This document shows positions 4,021 through 17,786 of a stretch of DNA of 64,000 nt, piece by piece. Source of the stretch: Truepera radiovictrix DSM 17093 (GTDB lineage Bacteria > Deinococcota > Deinococci > Deinococcales > Trueperaceae); NCBI RefSeq assembly GCF_000092425.1, contig NC_014221.1:152001-216000 (forward strand), written 5' to 3'. Position 1 is the first letter of the stretch. Each line of letters opens with the position of its first letter. The position numbers were made by a program, and so were the translations under genes. The notes below the pieces were generated by a model. The model was not told where the DNA came from, did not search any database, and saw nothing but the letters and a program-made list of their open reading frames with translations.

Positions 4021-5358
4021 GTGAGACCGCAGCGGTTAGTCGTCGTCGGCGGCGTCGCGGGTGGGATGAGCGCGGCGGCGAAGGCCAAACGCCAAAACCC
4101 CGCGCTCGAGGTCACCGTCTTCGAGCGGAACGCCTACATCTCCTACGGGGCGTGCGGGCTCCCCTATGCGACCTCCGGCGTCGTCCCCAACCTTCAGCGC
4201 CTCATCGCCCGGACGCCGGCGGCGATGCGCGCGCGCGGCGTCGACGTGCGCGTGCGCCACGAGGTCACCGAGGTCGACGGTGAAAGGCGCTGCGTCAAGG
4301 GGCGCAACCTCGAGACGGGCGAGGCTTTCTGCGCCCCCTATGACGCGCTGGTGCTCGCGACGGGGGCGCTGCCGGTGTGCCCGCAGGTGCCGGGGCGGGC
4401 GCTACCGGGGGTGCACGTGATGCGGCGCCTCGAGGACGCCGCGGCGCTGCGTGAGGCGATCGCCGCGGGGGCGACGCGCGCGGTGGTGGTGGGCGGCGGG
4501 TATATCGGCCTCGAGATGGTCGAGGCGCTCGTCACCGCGGGGCTCGACGTGCGGGTGCTCGAGCGCCAGGCGGGGTTGCTGCTGCCGTTTGGCCCCAAAC
4601 CCGCGGAGCTGGCCCTAGAGGAGGTCACCGCGCGCGCCGAGGTGGTGTTGGCGGCGGAGCTGCTGGGCTTCGAGGGGCGCGGCCGGCTCGAGCGCGTGGT
4701 GACGAGCGCGGGCACCTTTCCGGCGGACGTGGCGCTCGTCGCGGTGGGGGTGCGCCCCAACAACGCCTTGGCGCGCGCGCTCGGGTTGCGCCTCGGCCCC
4801 GCCGAAGCGGTGTTGACCGACGCGCAGCTGCGCACCGACCGCGACGGCGTGTTCGCCGTGGGCGACCTGACCGCCGCGCATCACCGCGTCACGGGGCGCC
4901 CCGCTTGGATCCCGCTCGGCGACACCGCCAACCGCCAGGGCCGCGTCGCCGGCACCGTCATCGGCGGCGGCGACGCGCGCTTTCGGGGGATCGTCGGCAC
5001 CGCCATCACCAAGGTCTTTGAGCGGGCGTTCGCGACCACCGGGCTGACCCTCGCCGAGGCGCAGCGGCACGGCTTGAGCGCCCGGGAGACCCAGATCACC
5101 ACCACCGACCACGCGAGCTACTACCCGGGCCACCGCCCGCTCCACGTCACGCTCGTCTGGGAGGAGGGCACGGGGCGGCTTTTGGGGGGGCAGCTCGTCG
5201 GTTACGGCGACGCGGTCAAGCGCATCGACGTCCTCGCCGCCCTGCTCTTTCGCCAAGGTACGCTCCAGGACCTCGCCGACCTCGACTTCGCCTACGCCCC
5301 GCCCTTTAGCAACGTGTGGGACCCCTTGGCGGTGGCGGCCAACGCGGCGCTCGGTTAG
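4021..5358 (+). CDS. CoA-disulfide reductase / NADH oxidase-type FAD oxidoreductase
   Basis: Two-dinucleotide-binding flavoprotein with an FAD site at the N-terminus (VVVGGVAGGMSAA), an NAD(P)H site (VVVGGGYIGLEM, about residues 157-168) and FAD motif VFAVGDLTAA. The single active-site cysteine sits in YGACGLPY (about residue 46), as in CoA-disulfide reductase and water-forming NADH oxidase. The usual role is reduction of CoA or related disulfides in thiol redox balance. The C-terminal dimerisation domain is complete. The start is GTG 4021; the -10 hexamer TAGACT at 4009-4014 leaves room for almost no leader. CoADR versus Nox cannot be settled by eye. Confidence 0.85.
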   Translation: MRPQRLVVVGGVAGGMSAAAKAKRQNPALEVTVFERNAYISYGACGLPYATSGVVPNLQRLIARTPAAMRARGVDVRVRHEVTEVDGERRCVKGRNLETGEAFCAPYDALVLATGALPVCPQVPGRALPGVHVMRRLEDAAALREAIAAGATRAVVVGGGYIGLEMVEALVTAGLDVRVLERQAGLLLPFGPKPAELALEEVTARAEVVLAAELLGFEGRGRLERVVTSAGTFPADVALVAVGVRPNNALARALGLRLGPAEAVLTDAQLRTDRDGVFAVGDLTAAHHRVTGRPAWIPLGDTANRQGRVAGTVIGGGDARFRGIVGTAITKVFERAFATTGLTLAEAQRHGLSARETQITTTDHASYYPGHRPLHVTLVWEEGTGRLLGGQLVGYGDAVKRIDVLAALLFRQGTLQDLADLDFAYAPPFSNVWDPLAVAANAALG

Positions 5359-5408
5359 CGCCGGGGCGCCCGACCCCTCGTCAAGGCAAAAGGGTATAAG
5401 GTAGAGGG

Positions 5409-5915
5409 GTGAATAGGCAACTCCGCAGAGCCAACGAACGCTCCGACAAGCGCCGCGAGCGCGAGCAGGAGCGCCGCAAAGAGGCGCGCCGCGCCGCGCG
5501 GGTCGTCCCCGCCCCCCGCAAAAACGCCGCCACGCCGGAAGCGGCGCCCAAAACCCGCCCCGCCCCCGGCACCCTCCGCCAAGGGCTCAGCCTGGCGTAC
5601 CTGGTGCTGGTCGTCGGCATCCTCCTGGCGCAAGCCTTCGTGCCGCAGCGGACCGACCCCTTTTCGCTCTTTGTCCACGCGCTCTTTTACGTGATCTTCG
5701 GCTACTTCCTCGCCCTGCAGCTCTTCCGGCGCGGTGTCGCGCGCGCGGGGCCCGTGACGGTCGTCGCGGGGCTGCTGCTCGCAGCGCTCGTCGAGGCGGC
5801 GAAGCTCTTAACGGGCGCGGGGGCGCCCGAAGCGGTTCTCGTCGCCCTCGCGCTGCCAGGGCTGCTGCTCGGCGCGTGGTTGGGCGGGTTCGTCCACCGT
5901 CAGGAGGGCCGTTAG
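5409..5915 (+). CDS. Small membrane protein with highly charged N-terminus (weak VanZ-like pattern)
   Basis: 168 residues. The first 55 or so are very rich in Arg, Glu and Ala (likely cytoplasmic, disordered or helical). About four membrane helices follow (near 59-75, 85-105, 113-130, 142-160). The pattern of a His in the second helix region and a later acidic residue loosely recalls VanZ-like proteins, but this is not convincing. GTG start at 5409 sits 9 nt after a TATAAG hexamer (5395-5400), so the mRNA is probably leaderless. Function unknown. Confidence 0.6.
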   Translation: MNRQLRRANERSDKRREREQERRKEARRAARVVPAPRKNAATPEAAPKTRPAPGTLRQGLSLAYLVLVVGILLAQAFVPQRTDPFSLFVHALFYVIFGYFLALQLFRRGVARAGPVTVVAGLLLAALVEAAKLLTGAGAPEAVLVALALPGLLLGAWLGGFVHRQEGR

Positions 5916-5968: not shown

Positions 5969-6046
5969 TGCATCCCCTTGACGAATGCCGCATACGGGTG
6001 TAAGATGATTTTATCAGCGCTCGAAAGAGCGCCTTTTTTCTTTCCC
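5969..6046 (+). repeat. Promoter-terminator repeat, copy 1
   Basis: A 78-bp unit containing a sigma-70-type promoter, TTGACG (5978-5983), a 17-nt spacer and TAAGAT (6001-6006), followed at once by a hairpin GCGCTC-GAAA-GAGCGC (6017-6032) and a T6 run (6034-6039). The predicted transcript would be only about 27 nt. A second copy, inverted, lies at 7517-7593. The 17-nt promoter spacer is identical in both, and the hairpin loop differs (GAAA versus GCAA). The unit may terminate the upstream membrane-protein gene and at the same time fire a tiny RNA toward the aldehyde dehydrogenase. Confidence 0.75.
6017..6039 (+). terminator. Intrinsic terminator inside repeat copy 1
   Basis: A 6-bp GC stem with a GAAA tetraloop and a six-T tract. 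It lies about 100 nt after the stop of the gene at 5409-5915 and about 100 nt before the aldehyde dehydrogenase start, so it separates the two units. Confidence 0.8.
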
Positions 6047-6142
6047 CAGAGCAACCCAACCCTGGTGACCGAGGGTGCTACGGCGGCGCGCCGCTGGGGC
6101 CGACGCGCCACCGCCGCTTACAATGGGCGGCGGAGGTTACCG

Positions 6143-7510
6143 ATGGCGCTCGTTTCAACAAATCCGGCGACGGGGGAGACCCTGGCGCACTACCCGGTGA
6201 TGTCGGCAGCGGAGGTGCAAGAGGCGATCGCGGAGGCGCACGCGGCCTTCGAGGTGTGGCGGACGTGGCCCGTGAGGCGCCGCGCCGAGCCGATGCGCCG
6301 TGCCGCCCTCCTGCTGCGAGACGAGGTCGCGGCGCAGGCGCGCCTTATCAGCGAGGAGATGGGCAAACCCATCAAGCAGGCTCGAGCCGAGGTCGAGAAG
6401 TGCGCCTGGGTGTGCGACTACTACGCGGAGCACGCCGAGGCGCTGCTCGCCCCGCAGCGCGTCCAGACGGACGCCTACAAGAGCTTCGTCAGCTACCGGC
6501 CGCTCGGGGTGGTGCTCGCGGTGATGCCGTGGAACTTCCCGCTGTGGCAGACCTTTCGCTTCGCCGCGCCCAGCCTCATGGCGGGCAACGGGGCGCTCCT
6601 CAAACACGCCCCCAACGTGACCGGCTGCGCGCTCGCGACCGAGGCGCTGCTGCGCCGCGCGGGCTTCCCCGAGGGGCTCTTTCGCGCCCTGCGGATCGAG
6701 GTCGATCAGGTCGAAGGGGTGCTCGACCACCCGCACGTCGTCGCCGCGACGCTCACAGGTAGCACCCGCGCGGGGGCGGCGGTCGCCGCGCTCGCGGGGG
6801 CGCGCCTTAAAAAGACGGTGCTCGAGCTCGGCGGCTCCGACCCCTACGTGATTTTAGAGGACGCCGAGCTCGAGCTCGCGGTCGAGGCGTGCGCGGTGGG
6901 CCGGTTGCAAAACAGCGGTCAGAGCTGCATCGCGGCAAAGCGCTTTATCGTCGTCGCACCCCTCGTCGAACGCTTTACCGAGCGCTTGGTGGCGCGCTTT
7001 CGCGCCTGCTGCATGGGCGACCCGCGCGACGAGGCGACCGAGCTCGGCCCGCAGGCGCGCGAGGACCTGCGCGAGGCGCTGCACCGCCAGGTCACGAGGA
7101 GCGTCGAGGCGGGGGCAGAGCTGCTCTTGGGGGGAACGCTGCCCGAGGGGCCGGGCTACTTCTACCCGGCGACGGTGCTCGGGGGTGTGAGGCCCGGGAT
7201 GCCCGCTTTCGACGAGGAGACCTTCGGGCCGGTCGCCGCCATCGTCCGCGCCGAGGACGAGGAGGAGGCGATCGCGCTGGCCAACAGGAGCCCCTACGGC
7301 CTCGGCGCCGCGGTCTTTACCCGCGACCGGTCGCGCGGCGAGCGGATCGCCGAGGAGCGGCTCGAGGCCGGGAGCTGCTTCGTCAACGCCTTTGTCCGCT
7401 CCGACCCGCGGCTGCCCTTTGGGGGGATCAAGCGCTCCGGTTACGGGCGCGAGCTCGCGGCTTTCGGGATTCACGAGTTTGTCAACGTCAAGACGGTGTA
7501 CGTGGCGTAA
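6143..7510 (+). CDS. NAD(P)-dependent aldehyde dehydrogenase (succinate-semialdehyde dehydrogenase-like)
   Basis: Oxidises an aldehyde to the acid. The catalytic cysteine is C262 in NSGQSC and the general base is E228 in LELGGSDPYV. MPWNFPLWQ is the cofactor-binding motif, and the C-terminal LPFGGIKRSGYGREL motif is typical of the Sad/GabD branch. Length is 455 residues. The frame is open far upstream, but ATG 6143 has a GGAGG 7-11 nt before it and the protein then begins in the family manner (STNPATGE). The gene stands alone, flanked by two inverted promoter-terminator repeats. The precise substrate is not determined; succinate semialdehyde or a related short aldehyde is the best guess. Confidence 0.88.
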   Translation: MALVSTNPATGETLAHYPVMSAAEVQEAIAEAHAAFEVWRTWPVRRRAEPMRRAALLLRDEVAAQARLISEEMGKPIKQARAEVEKCAWVCDYYAEHAEALLAPQRVQTDAYKSFVSYRPLGVVLAVMPWNFPLWQTFRFAAPSLMAGNGALLKHAPNVTGCALATEALLRRAGFPEGLFRALRIEVDQVEGVLDHPHVVAATLTGSTRAGAAVAALAGARLKKTVLELGGSDPYVILEDAELELAVEACAVGRLQNSGQSCIAAKRFIVVAPLVERFTERLVARFRACCMGDPRDEATELGPQAREDLREALHRQVTRSVEAGAELLLGGTLPEGPGYFYPATVLGGVRPGMPAFDEETFGPVAAIVRAEDEEEAIALANRSPYGLGAAVFTRDRSRGERIAEERLEAGSCFVNAFVRSDPRLPFGGIKRSGYGRELAAFGIHEFVNVKTVYVA

Positions 7511-7516
7511 CGCGCC

Positions 7517-7593
7517 GGGAAACAAAAAAGCGCTCTTGCGAGCGCCCATAAAACTATCCTACACCCGTATGCGGCATTCGTCAAGGAGATGCA
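7517..7593 (-). repeat. Promoter-terminator repeat, copy 2 (inverted)
   Basis: Reverse-strand copy of the unit at 5969-6046. It has -35 TTGACG (7584-7579), an identical 17-nt spacer, -10 TAGGAT (7561-7556), stem GCGCTC/GAGCGC (7530-7545) and a T6 run (7529-7524 on the minus strand). It points back into the 3' end of the aldehyde dehydrogenase. On the plus strand the same hairpin can end that gene's message. Confidence 0.75.
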
Positions 7594-7799: not shown

Positions 7800-8504
7800 G
7801 TGAGCTACGAAGACTACAAACGCACCTATGGGCAAGACTACGGCCAAACCTACGGCCAGAGCTACGGGCAGAGCTATGGCCAGTACGGCTCGTACAACCG
7901 CTACGACGACGACGACGGCGACACCAACTGGACGTACGTCGTTACCGGCACGCTCTTTATCGCCGCGGGCGCCTACCTCATCTATAAAGGGCTCAGCAGC
8001 GACGACGAGGACCACACCTACACGTATGACACCCGCTCCGAAAAGCAGAGCCGCGGCAAGGGTGTCCAGGTGCGCGAGAGCATCGTGGTCAACAAACCGG
8101 TGTCGGAGCTCTACGCCTACTGGCGCAAGCTCGAAAACCTGCCGCGCATCATGAGCCACCTCGAGTCGGTGACGGAGATGGGGACCCGCTCGCACTGGAA
8201 GGCCAAAGGCCCCCTGGGGATGAGCCCCGAGTGGGACGCGACGATCACCGACGAGCGCAAGGACGAGACCATCTCGTGGCGCTCGCTCGAAGGCTCCGAG
8301 GTGCCCAACGAGGGGACGGTGCGTTTTATTAAGCGCGGCGACTCGAGCACGGAGATCCTGGTGTCGTTGACCTACCACCCGCCGCTCGGGCCGGTCGGGG
8401 CGGCGGTCGCCAAGCTCTTCGGTGAGGAGCCCTCGCAGCAGATCCGCGACGACCTGCAAAACTTCAAGCAGAGCGTCGAGAGCGGTTCGCTGTCGCTGGT
8501 TTAA
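7800..8504 (+). CDS. Membrane-anchored SRPBCC (cyclase/dehydrase) protein with YGQ-repeat N-terminus
   Basis: Three parts. Residues 3-35 are a tyrosine/glutamine/glycine repeat (units YGQD, YGQT, YGQS, YGQS, YGQY), then an acidic stretch. One membrane helix spans about 46-64. From about residue 80 onward there is a SRPBCC/START-like domain (VRESIVVNKPVSELYAYWRK, later RFIKRGDSSTEI). SRPBCC domains of this kind bind hydrophobic ligands; the real role is unknown. Start GTG 7800 has an AAAGGGGG Shine-Dalgarno before it; the frame is open further upstream without repeat-like content. It is convergent with mfd. The low-complexity N-terminus before a membrane helix is unusual for the family. Confidence 0.7.
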   Translation: MSYEDYKRTYGQDYGQTYGQSYGQSYGQYGSYNRYDDDDGDTNWTYVVTGTLFIAAGAYLIYKGLSSDDEDHTYTYDTRSEKQSRGKGVQVRESIVVNKPVSELYAYWRKLENLPRIMSHLESVTEMGTRSHWKAKGPLGMSPEWDATITDERKDETISWRSLEGSEVPNEGTVRFIKRGDSSTEILVSLTYHPPLGPVGAAVAKLFGEEPSQQIRDDLQNFKQSVESGSLSLV

Positions 8505-15117: not shown

Positions 15118-16002
15118 ATGACAGGTAACGAAGCGAGCAGCGAGCCGCGCGAGGTGTTTAGCCGCGACCTCTTGCGGGACAAGGTCGTGCTGATCACGGG
15201 GGGCGGTACGGGTTTGGGCCGCGCCATGGGGGAGCGCTTTTTGGCGCTGGGGGCGTCGCTGGTCATCACGGGGCGGCGCGAAGGGGTGCTGCGCGAGGCG
15301 GCCGAGGCGATGGCGGCGGCGACCGGCGGCGCTGTCCTCCCCGTGAGCGGCGACGTGCGCGACCCCGAGCGGGTCGCCGCGACGCTCGACGCCGCTTACG
15401 AGCGCTTCGGTCGCGTCGACGCGCTCGTGAATAACGCCGCCGGCAACTTTATCTCCCCGACCGAGCGCCTTTCGCACCGCGCCGTGGACGCCGTGCTCGG
15501 TATCGTGCTGCACGGGACCTTTTACTACACGCTCGAGCTCGGCAAACGCTGGATCGGCGCCGGGCGCGGCGGGGTGGTGCTCAACATCGCCACCACCTAC
15601 GCGACCTCCGGCTCGGGGTACGTGGTGCCGTCGGCGGCGGCCAAGGCGGGGGTGGTCGCGATGACCAAGTCGCTCGCCGCCGAGTGGGGCAAGTACGGCA
15701 TCCGGCTCAACGCCATTGCGCCGGGCCCCTTTCCCACCGAAGGGGCCTGGAGCCGCCTCATGCCCACCCCCCAGATCCAGGCGCTCTTTGAAAAGCGCGT
15801 CCCGCTGCGGCGCGTCGGTGAGCACCTCGAGCTCGCCAACCTAGCCGCCTATCTGCTCTCGGACGCCGCGGCCTTTATCACGGGCGACCTCATCGCCATC
15901 GACGGCGGCGAGAGCGCGTGGAATGGCGGCGAGTTCAACATCCTAGATGAGCTCACGCCGGAGCAGTGGGACGCTCTGGCGGCGGCGCGCAGCCGAAGCT
16001 AG
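15118..16002 (+). CDS. SDR-family oxidoreductase, 2,4-dienoyl-CoA reductase-like
   Basis: NADP-binding Rossmann motif TGGGTGLG near residue 27 and NNAAGN in the middle. Where most SDRs have YxxxK, this has SAAAK, with a tyrosine four residues before the serine (GYVVPSAAAK). That arrangement is typical of 2,4-dienoyl-CoA reductases, which help degrade polyunsaturated fatty acids. The C-terminal GDLIAIDGGE is normal. ATG 15118 has AAGGAGG in front. The gene is alone; other beta-oxidation genes are not adjacent, though the ETF genes are in the window. Confidence 0.82.
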   Translation: MTGNEASSEPREVFSRDLLRDKVVLITGGGTGLGRAMGERFLALGASLVITGRREGVLREAAEAMAAATGGAVLPVSGDVRDPERVAATLDAAYERFGRVDALVNNAAGNFISPTERLSHRAVDAVLGIVLHGTFYYTLELGKRWIGAGRGGVVLNIATTYATSGSGYVVPSAAAKAGVVAMTKSLAAEWGKYGIRLNAIAPGPFPTEGAWSRLMPTPQIQALFEKRVPLRRVGEHLELANLAAYLLSDAAAFITGDLIAIDGGESAWNGGEFNILDELTPEQWDALAAARSRS

Positions 16003-16135
16003 GTATCTTTTGGTGGCGCTTTAGCCCAACTCGAGCGGCTTGCGCCGCACGAGGGCGCGTCAGGAAGAAAGTACGTCTCGGCGGTAATGGAGAGAGCGAA
16101 GAACGCTGAAGCTCGAAAGGGCAGCCGGGAGGTAC

Positions 16136-17786
16136 TTAGCGGCCTCTGGGCGGCGCGGTGAGCAGCGCCTCGAGCTGGCGCTGCAGCTCGGTCTGCGCGA
16201 TCACGCGGTAGAGCCGCCGGTGGCGGCCGTTGCCGGGGGCGCGCCAGGCGCTGACGCCGTCGGGGCTCAGGTGCAGCGCTTCGTGGTCGGCGAGCCCGAA
16301 GTAGGTGCCGCCCTCCGGGTGCACCGTGCCGCGCACGGCGTAGAGGACCGTGCACAGGTCCCACGAGTTGCGGCCGACGCCCTCCCGGCCGAAAAACAGG
16401 GTGTAGGCGGCGCGCACGGGGTTTTCCGGCGGGGTGCTGCGAGCGAGCGTGTGTCCGGTGACGAAGCCCCCGCAGACGCTCCCCGGGGTGAAGACGACCG
16501 GGGTGGGCCACGTTTCCAGCACCCTCATGGCCGGCTCCGGCGTCATCTCCCGCCCCCCCCCGTAAGTAGAGGTCGCGGCTGCTACCGGGGTGCGTGCCGG
16601 CCATCACCACGAGCTGTCTGACCTTGCGCCGCACGAGCGCCTCGCCGCTCAGGCCGCTGTAGCGGTCGGGGCTCGAGGCGAGCAGGTCGGCGAGGTTTTG
16701 CAAAAACCCCACCGCGATGAGCGTCACGCTGCTGTCGGGTTGCGCGGCCAACACCCGCCGGTAGACCGCGACCGCCGCCTCGGGGTTGGGCGCGGTGTTG
16801 TGCGGAAAGCGCTCGGCGAGATCCTTGACAAACCGCGGGGCAAAGGTGCGCCAGTAGGGGGTGGCGACCGCGTACTGCGGCCTGGGGTTGCGGCCGACGG
16901 GGACGTCTGGGCGCCCGTAAAAGGTGTTGATGGCGCCCAGTGCAGCGGCCGCGTAGGGGTCGTTGACGTTGGCGATGGTCGCCAGGAGGCGCGCTTCACC
17001 GCGGTCGGCGAGCGCGTGCAGCACCGCCAGGGCGCCCGCGTCGTCGACGTCGATGCCGAGGTCGGTGTCGAAAATCACCGGCACCCCGCGCGCCGCGACG
17101 CTCTGGCTGCCACCCCCAAGCTCGATGACGAGGCGCGGGGCGGCGTTCGGGTGGCGGTCGAAGGCCCGCGCGACGCGCAGGCCGCTGTGCCCCTGAAAGA
17201 GCAGCGCGACGCTCCCCCCGCTCCGCCAGTCGGGGCGGTCGACAACCTCTTGCAGCACGGCGGCGAGGTCGGGGGTGCGCTGCGCCGCGCCCGCCTCGCC
17301 CGCGCGCGTCCACGGCAGCGGGGTCCAGACGACTCGAGCGCGGGTCTTGGCGCGGTAGGCGAGGTTGTGGTGGGCCGCCCGAAAGGGTTTGGCGCTGCCC
17401 GTCGCCTCCGCCCGGATGGTCACGCGCGCGGGGGCGCTATGCGCCTCGTCGGCGGTGAACTGCACGTAGGCGCGGCGAATCTTCGCCCCTCGCGGCAGCT
17501 GCACCCCGGTAAAGCGCAACCCGACGGTCTGCGGTTGCCCCCGTTTGAGGCCGAGCTCGAGGTCGGGGCTGATGAAGGTGATGGTGCCGTCCGCGCGGTT
17601 CTCGGCGTCGTCGCCGCTCGAGCTGACCACGACGCTCAGGGTGCGCGTGGCGGTGACCTCCAAGGGCGGCGCGGTTTGCGGCCCCGCACCGGCGCACGCC
17701 GCGAGGCTCGCGATCATCCCCAAGCTGAGACAAGCCGCGGCGAGGCGGCGACCGACCCGGACCCGGTTGGCGTTGCTGACGTGCAT
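16136..17786 (-). pseudogene. Nucleoside hydrolase-like lipoprotein, frameshifted at a C9/G9 tract
   Basis: A lipoprotein signal (lipobox SLAAC near residue 30) is followed by a beta-sandwich module (about 45-230) and an inosine-uridine nucleoside hydrolase domain with the Ca2+-site pattern FDTDLGIDVDDAGAL and later VGFLQNLADLL. The frame breaks at a run of nine C (16553-16561; G9 in the gene). After removal of one G the protein continues LRGGREMTPEPAM and ends at 16136. Without correction, translation runs in a nonsense frame to 15999. The predicted role is exported ribonucleoside or glycoside hydrolysis. The break may be a phase-variable tract, a real lesion or a sequencing error. Confidence 0.8.
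16553..16561. repeat. Homopolymer C9 at the frameshift
   Basis: Nine consecutive C on the plus strand, inside the coding part of the nucleoside-hydrolase-like gene and exactly at the frame change. Confidence 0.85.

Follow-up and report, generated by a model that had tools for sequence, protein, structure and literature searches.

An aldehyde dehydrogenase (ALDH) gene of Truepera radiovictrix DSM 17093 lies between two similar units in which a promoter is followed almost at once by a terminator. The question raised by this locus is what such units could be for, and whether they concern the gene between them. The window analyzed, i.e., the whole stretch of 64,000 nucleotides, corresponds to bases 152001–216000 of a single-contig genome of 3,260,398 bp.

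Structure of the two inverted units

A repeat search of the window found copies 1 and 2 as 77-nt inverted arms (5969–6045, forward; 7517–7593, reverse), 86% complementary and separated by 1471 nt. On direct reading, TTGACG, the same 17-nt spacer, a −10 element of the form TAnnnT (TAAGAT vs. TAGGAT), and a hairpin followed by T6 were found to be common to both copies, which bears out the preliminary description of two inverted promoter–terminator units pointing inward at ALDH. The features are as follows:

5969..5972, forward: copy 1 upstream box TGCA, at about −44 to −41, from the sequence
5978..5983, forward: copy 1 −35 element TTGACG, from the sequence
5984..6000, forward: copy 1 17-nt spacer AATGCCGCATACGGGTG, identical in copy 2; presumed binding site
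6001..6006, forward: copy 1 −10 element TAAGAT, from the sequence
6013..6039, forward: copy 1 predicted RNA of ~27 nt (AUCA, hairpin, T-run), predicted from the sequence
6013–6016, forward: copy 1 ATCA, from the sequence
6017–6032, forward: copy 1 hairpin GCGCTC-GAAA-GAGCGC, −11.2 kcal/mol
6034–6039, forward: copy 1 T6, from the sequence
6143..7510, forward: ALDH gene (PF00171, E = 2.4e-132), a neighbor outside the element
7590..7593, reverse: copy 2 upstream box TGCA, from the sequence
7579..7584, reverse: copy 2 −35 element TTGACG, from the sequence
7562..7578, reverse: copy 2 17-nt spacer, same as in copy 1
7556..7561, reverse: copy 2 −10 element TAGGAT, from the sequence
7524..7549, reverse: copy 2 predicted RNA of ~26 nt (AUG, hairpin, T-run to 7524), predicted from the sequence
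7546–7529, reverse: copy 2 hairpin, −12.0 kcal/mol
7529–7524, reverse: copy 2 T6, from the sequence

The 25-nt promoter core occurred twice in the window, against an expectation of zero by chance. As the hairpin begins past the likely start by ~4 nt in copy 1 and by ~3 nt in copy 2, a length of ~26–27 nt is a fair estimate for the predicted RNAs, and the RNA of ~27 nt per unit proposed initially is retained on this basis. The predicted RNA of copy 2 stops ~14 bp before the ALDH stop codon. The curated models nearest to ALDH were succinate-semialdehyde dehydrogenases, with scores below the cut-offs (NF006915, 568 bits against a cut-off of 730). Elsewhere in the window, the frame at 7801–8504 (forward) encodes a protein with an initial YGQ-rich repeat (SYEDYKRTYGQDYGQTYGQSYGQ) followed by a soluble domain, and a nucleoside-hydrolase-like frame at 15999–17786 (reverse) turns Arg/Pro-rich toward its C terminus, possibly through a frameshift.

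Distribution and conservation of the family

The genome-wide search for the unit, suggested earlier as a check, yielded two further copies in this genome; with a 76-nt query, the Truepera genome contained four copies in all and no partial ones, and further copies were present in relatives. The core with at most one mismatch was confined to these four complete elements; it is thus no general promoter box in the Truepera genome, for which a general regulator box was rejected. The first promoter pattern matched 37 of the 39 Trueperaceae genomes, covering 16 of 17 genera, with no control match. The family motif GCAnnnnYTTGACGnATnnYGYATAn6TAnnnT, with two mismatches permitted, matched 101 of the 111 related genomes searched, representing 30 of 31 genera, usually in one to five copies, and reversed-pattern controls gave zero; the class-level and phylum-level searches cover the same 111 genomes, whose composition showed no trace of Deinococcus. 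Copy number across the family ranges from 1 to 10 per genome. Thermus genomes mostly contain exactly one copy, and three of the missed Thermus genomes carry a variant with the upstream gap one base shorter. An exact scan of species genomes gave 73 matches, of which 72 were titled Deinococcota and none Deinococcus, with few Thermus genomes returned either; the remaining match (L159) was a Micrarchaeota MAG, with no terminator hairpin in its printed sequence.

Against Rfam 15, the window region gave no match at E ≤ 1, and eight loci gave none at gathering scores. Plasmids and viral contigs contained no family matches at the sensitivity used, and a plasmid or phage origin was rejected on this ground. 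No paper with this motif or with a Thermus rtcB leader RNA was found in the open-access literature. Judged by their sequences, the units belong to a previously unnamed family of Truepera, Thermus, Meiothermus, and their kin, and this family is old and chromosomal in the Truepera–Thermus lineage.

Among Trueperaceae, 82 copies share a conserved block of YGCA (around −44), CTTGACGaAT, a spacer YGCATA box, and then TAnnnT, with TTGAC invariant; parts of this block were demanded by the search pattern, but YGCA, absent from the first family pattern, was not. Across 164 distinct copies, collected with a pattern that tolerated two mismatches anywhere, the upstream GCA box had G in 160, C in 149, and A in 163, and T-12, A-11, and T-7 were invariant (164/164) while the middle of the −10 element varied, as expected for a real sigma-A promoter. 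Together with the TTGACA-like −35 element, these bases define a sigma-A (sigma-70 type) promoter, its 17-nt spacing, set by the pattern, lying within the required 16–18 bp. The −10 element is non-consensus in most copies. The spacer core ATnnYGYATA is conserved throughout the order, and the Thermaceae version of the block reads GCATAnnCTTGACGCATAnCGCATA, with three direct GCATA repeats. Conservation is centered on the promoter, where most positions carry 1–2 bits; the transcribed part shows little of it apart from pairing.

A terminator-like hairpin with a T-run ends 25–53 nt past the −10 element in 160 of the 164 copies, as compared with 150 of 492 dinucleotide shuffles (30%) and 69 of 492 random places (14%), and the units thereby qualify as carrying intrinsic terminators, which are recognized by a GC-rich hairpin and a T-run. 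The trinucleotide ATC lies 6–7 nt downstream of the −10 element in 96/164 copies. The innermost 5-bp stem gave 52 entries (a few incomplete) ranging from GC-rich to A/T-containing, with mostly purine-rich loops; the stems vary widely yet stay paired, suggesting that pairing rather than sequence is kept, all entries being paired by the fold used for finding them.

The spacer and upstream GCA box are thus shared order-wide and almost always accompanied by a nearby terminator, which strongly supports the early guess of a function beyond promoter needs. The accompanying guess, that spacer identity reflects recent copying, fails, since the spacer is conserved between families, some positions are ancient, and no plasmid or viral match was found; the identity reflects long-term constraint. 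Recent copying may account for the alike hairpins within the Truepera genome and for local tandem copies elsewhere.

Genomic positions and candidate functions

Two old positions of the units were observed in several genera. One is beside yciI, which is divergent from dnaK (nine loci share the yciI neighbor), and the other lies near sucA, flanked by the genes of a pfkB-type kinase and a PALP enzyme. A third ancient position, ahead of rtcB, recurs in all Thermus sampled. At the yciI/dnaK position the units are of a short type, in which the hairpin directly follows ATC, and at the pfkB/PALP position of a long type with a 10–20-nt linker; the two body types follow their positions even within one genome. 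In the short type, the predicted RNA has ~4 nt plus the loop unpaired. With so little unpaired sequence, and neither stem nor loop conserved, no base-pairing target can be named.

A promoter and a stop signal, side by side and both strongly conserved, are hard to account for by ordinary gene expression. The reading we favor, with a chance only just short of even, is that the units are small RNA genes jointly controlled by one factor, the hairpin RNA acting by its structure and not by its sequence. Each unit would be a complete miniature transcription unit, made up of the sigma-A type promoter, the extra conserved sequence, and the intrinsic-terminator hairpin that the sequences show. The extra sequence (GCA at about −43, ATnnYGYATA in the spacer) may be read by a dedicated regulator or form an unusual RNA polymerase contact; the polymerase would start near the conserved ATC and be released almost at once, giving a hairpin RNA of 25–55 nt. 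Transcription, regulator, and active RNA are what we infer from the observed promoter, extra sequence, immediate terminator, and old positions. In units placed immediately ahead of a gene (rtcB in Thermus, RsuA-type in Meiothermus), leak through the terminator would feed that gene too. The "tiny RNA" of the preliminary description thereby stays the leading candidate. It is possible, at somewhat under an even chance, that a Deinococcota lineage has long kept a dedicated regulon of such minimal RNA genes, with a marked promoter, an immediate terminator, and a 25–55-nt hairpin that matters by structure and not by sequence; if so, few known families of primary-transcript RNA genes would be as small. 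The family motif in any case provides a concrete sequence for seeking a regulator common to Thermus, Meiothermus, and Truepera.

The concentration of conservation in the promoter, with little in the transcribed part except pairing, would also suit a role at the DNA level. Polymerase or a regulator would then bind or be parked at the promoter region (titration, local opening, domain marking), the terminator merely blocking harmful transcription. The non-consensus −10 of most copies, as regulated promoters have, points the same way. However, the pairing, T-run, and ATC start are all kept, two body types persist at two positions, and the few sites per genome could titrate only a scarce protein; we consider such a role unlikely.

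A regulated promoter joined to the leader terminator of the next gene, with read-through as the point, would place the function in cis, and here the neighbors are informative. Each of the 20 Thermus-type regions fetched has rtcB immediately downstream on the same strand, typically with a GGAGG-like ribosome site right past the T-run. Meiothermus and Calidithermus units precede an RsuA-type pseudouridine synthase gene whose ATG is a few nt beyond the T-run, and in another family gatB is downstream. Nearly every unit in the sampled Thermaceae precedes a same-strand gene, an arrangement equally compatible with a leader and with an independent RNA gene, and the Thermus unit, on sequence grounds, is probably best read as an attenuated leader ahead of rtcB. 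Against this, heuristic gene calls placed the downstream gene of Trueperaceae units on the same strand in 35 of 78 cases and on the opposite strand in 43, where the unit stands alone; by these counts, a leader of the downstream gene was rejected as the general rule for Trueperaceae. Copy 2, ending ~14 bp before the 3′ end of ALDH, would have nothing to express, and the downstream genes are unlike between lineages (rtcB, RsuA-type, gatB, uvrA, glycerate kinase, a PabB/TrpE relative). Cis attenuation as the purpose of the family is improbable. In four loci with gatB after the element (L189, L190, L111, and L118), gatB carries a TATAAT of its own a few bases upstream of the ATG and looks leaderless with a separate promoter.

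Flank exchange and comparison with described systems

A small sequence copying itself along with its promoter and terminator could explain the hairpin sequence common to the copies of one genome (four in Truepera) as well as tandem copies clustered locally, such as the three that genome G044 has within 600 bp. The latter (L084:403–1050) have a gene end on one side and a sugar-kinase-like gene on the other and suggest local duplication. The flanks of the elements are also swapped between two Truepera genomes. The order here is dnaK–yciI–element–VTT gene and block 4034–5737–copy 1–ALDH–copy 2; in the sister genome (G001) it is dnaK–yciI–element–3′ end of ALDH and block–element–VTT gene. The gene-order breaks coincide with elements, the flanks (dnaK–yciI, VTT-domain gene, ALDH, and the 4034–5737 block; loci L009, L011, and L012) being exchanged, and the counterpart of copy 2 is hence the element next to the 3′ end of ALDH in G001. 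Ordinary recombination between repeats explains this swap, and by the flank matches, on which alone this reading is based, ALDH seems to have become bracketed incidentally, when copies recombined with each other.

The early framing around ALDH finds no support, as in G001 ALDH was found to have an element only at its 3′ end and neighbors elsewhere are wholly different; the bracket is incidental, and the units are members of a conserved family. The "mobile regulatory repeat" suggested earlier is likewise weak. The 1–10 copies per genome (a single one in nearly every Thermus genome), the orthologous sites retained across genera, and the lack of matches in plasmids and viral contigs at the search sensitivity applied differ from REP/MITE-like repeats, for which positions that shift from species to species, frequently high copy numbers, or occurrence on mobile DNA are expected, making such a repeat quite unlikely. 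No specific support was found for an insulator, the remaining early option. Chance likeness of two ordinary promoters and terminators, each a common signal singly, has a negligible probability and is refuted by the zero expectation in the window, the zero family controls against 101 of 111 genomes matched, and the excess of hairpins over shuffles.

Among described systems, the streptococcal csRNAs controlled by CiaR resemble the jointly controlled small RNA genes favored here in being several related intergenic small RNA genes per genome with a shared operator–promoter followed by a terminator (PMC8186281). They are 87–151 nt long, with ribosome-site-complementary sequences and the operator TTTAAG-N5-TTTAAG (PMC8186281), whereas the units are predicted to give 25–55 nt (~27 nt in the window), have no conserved hairpin sequence, have a different operator, the CiaR one being absent from their conserved motif, and belong to another phylum. 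GraL, the E. coli greA leader, has a promoter, 19 nt before an intrinsic terminator, and short RNAs, most transcripts ending there (PMC6829880). Its layout resembles the Thermus rtcB arrangement, but GraL is one leader of one gene, and the units are a multi-position family with extra conserved promoter sequence; about half of the Trueperaceae units have no gene to lead, and greA is absent among the downstream genes identified. Leader attenuators and riboswitches in general share the early intrinsic terminator after a promoter, but the units have no sensing domain and no Rfam match and are too short for alternative folds; a same-strand gene past the terminator, present in 20/20 Thermus-type regions, was lacking in the 43 opposite-strand Trueperaceae cases. 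The nearest described systems are the csRNA family and GraL, and the units are neither.

An inverted pair around a gene resembles pdif modules, and some Meiothermus copies hold a CGCATAATGTATA-like stretch resembling XerCD dif/pdif. A dif site has two 11-bp arms around 6 bp, with the XerD arm near TTATGTTAA, and a hairpin with a T-run is not part of it. In the units, the second arm is replaced by the variable TAnnnT of the −10 element and the half-site spacing is wrong; dif/pdif was therefore rejected, and a dif-like pattern search of the Truepera genome gave no match.

Since Thermus is usually single-copy, the purpose of transcription into an immediate terminator is cleanly testable there by removing one 70-bp unit, and the units give a lead on the control of rtcB, the RNA repair ligase gene. 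In one Thermus rtcB locus (L220:3–1430), NF038162 scored below its cut-off, and the RtcB frame appears to be intein-bearing (TIGR01445, 29.7 bits against a cut-off of 24.5).
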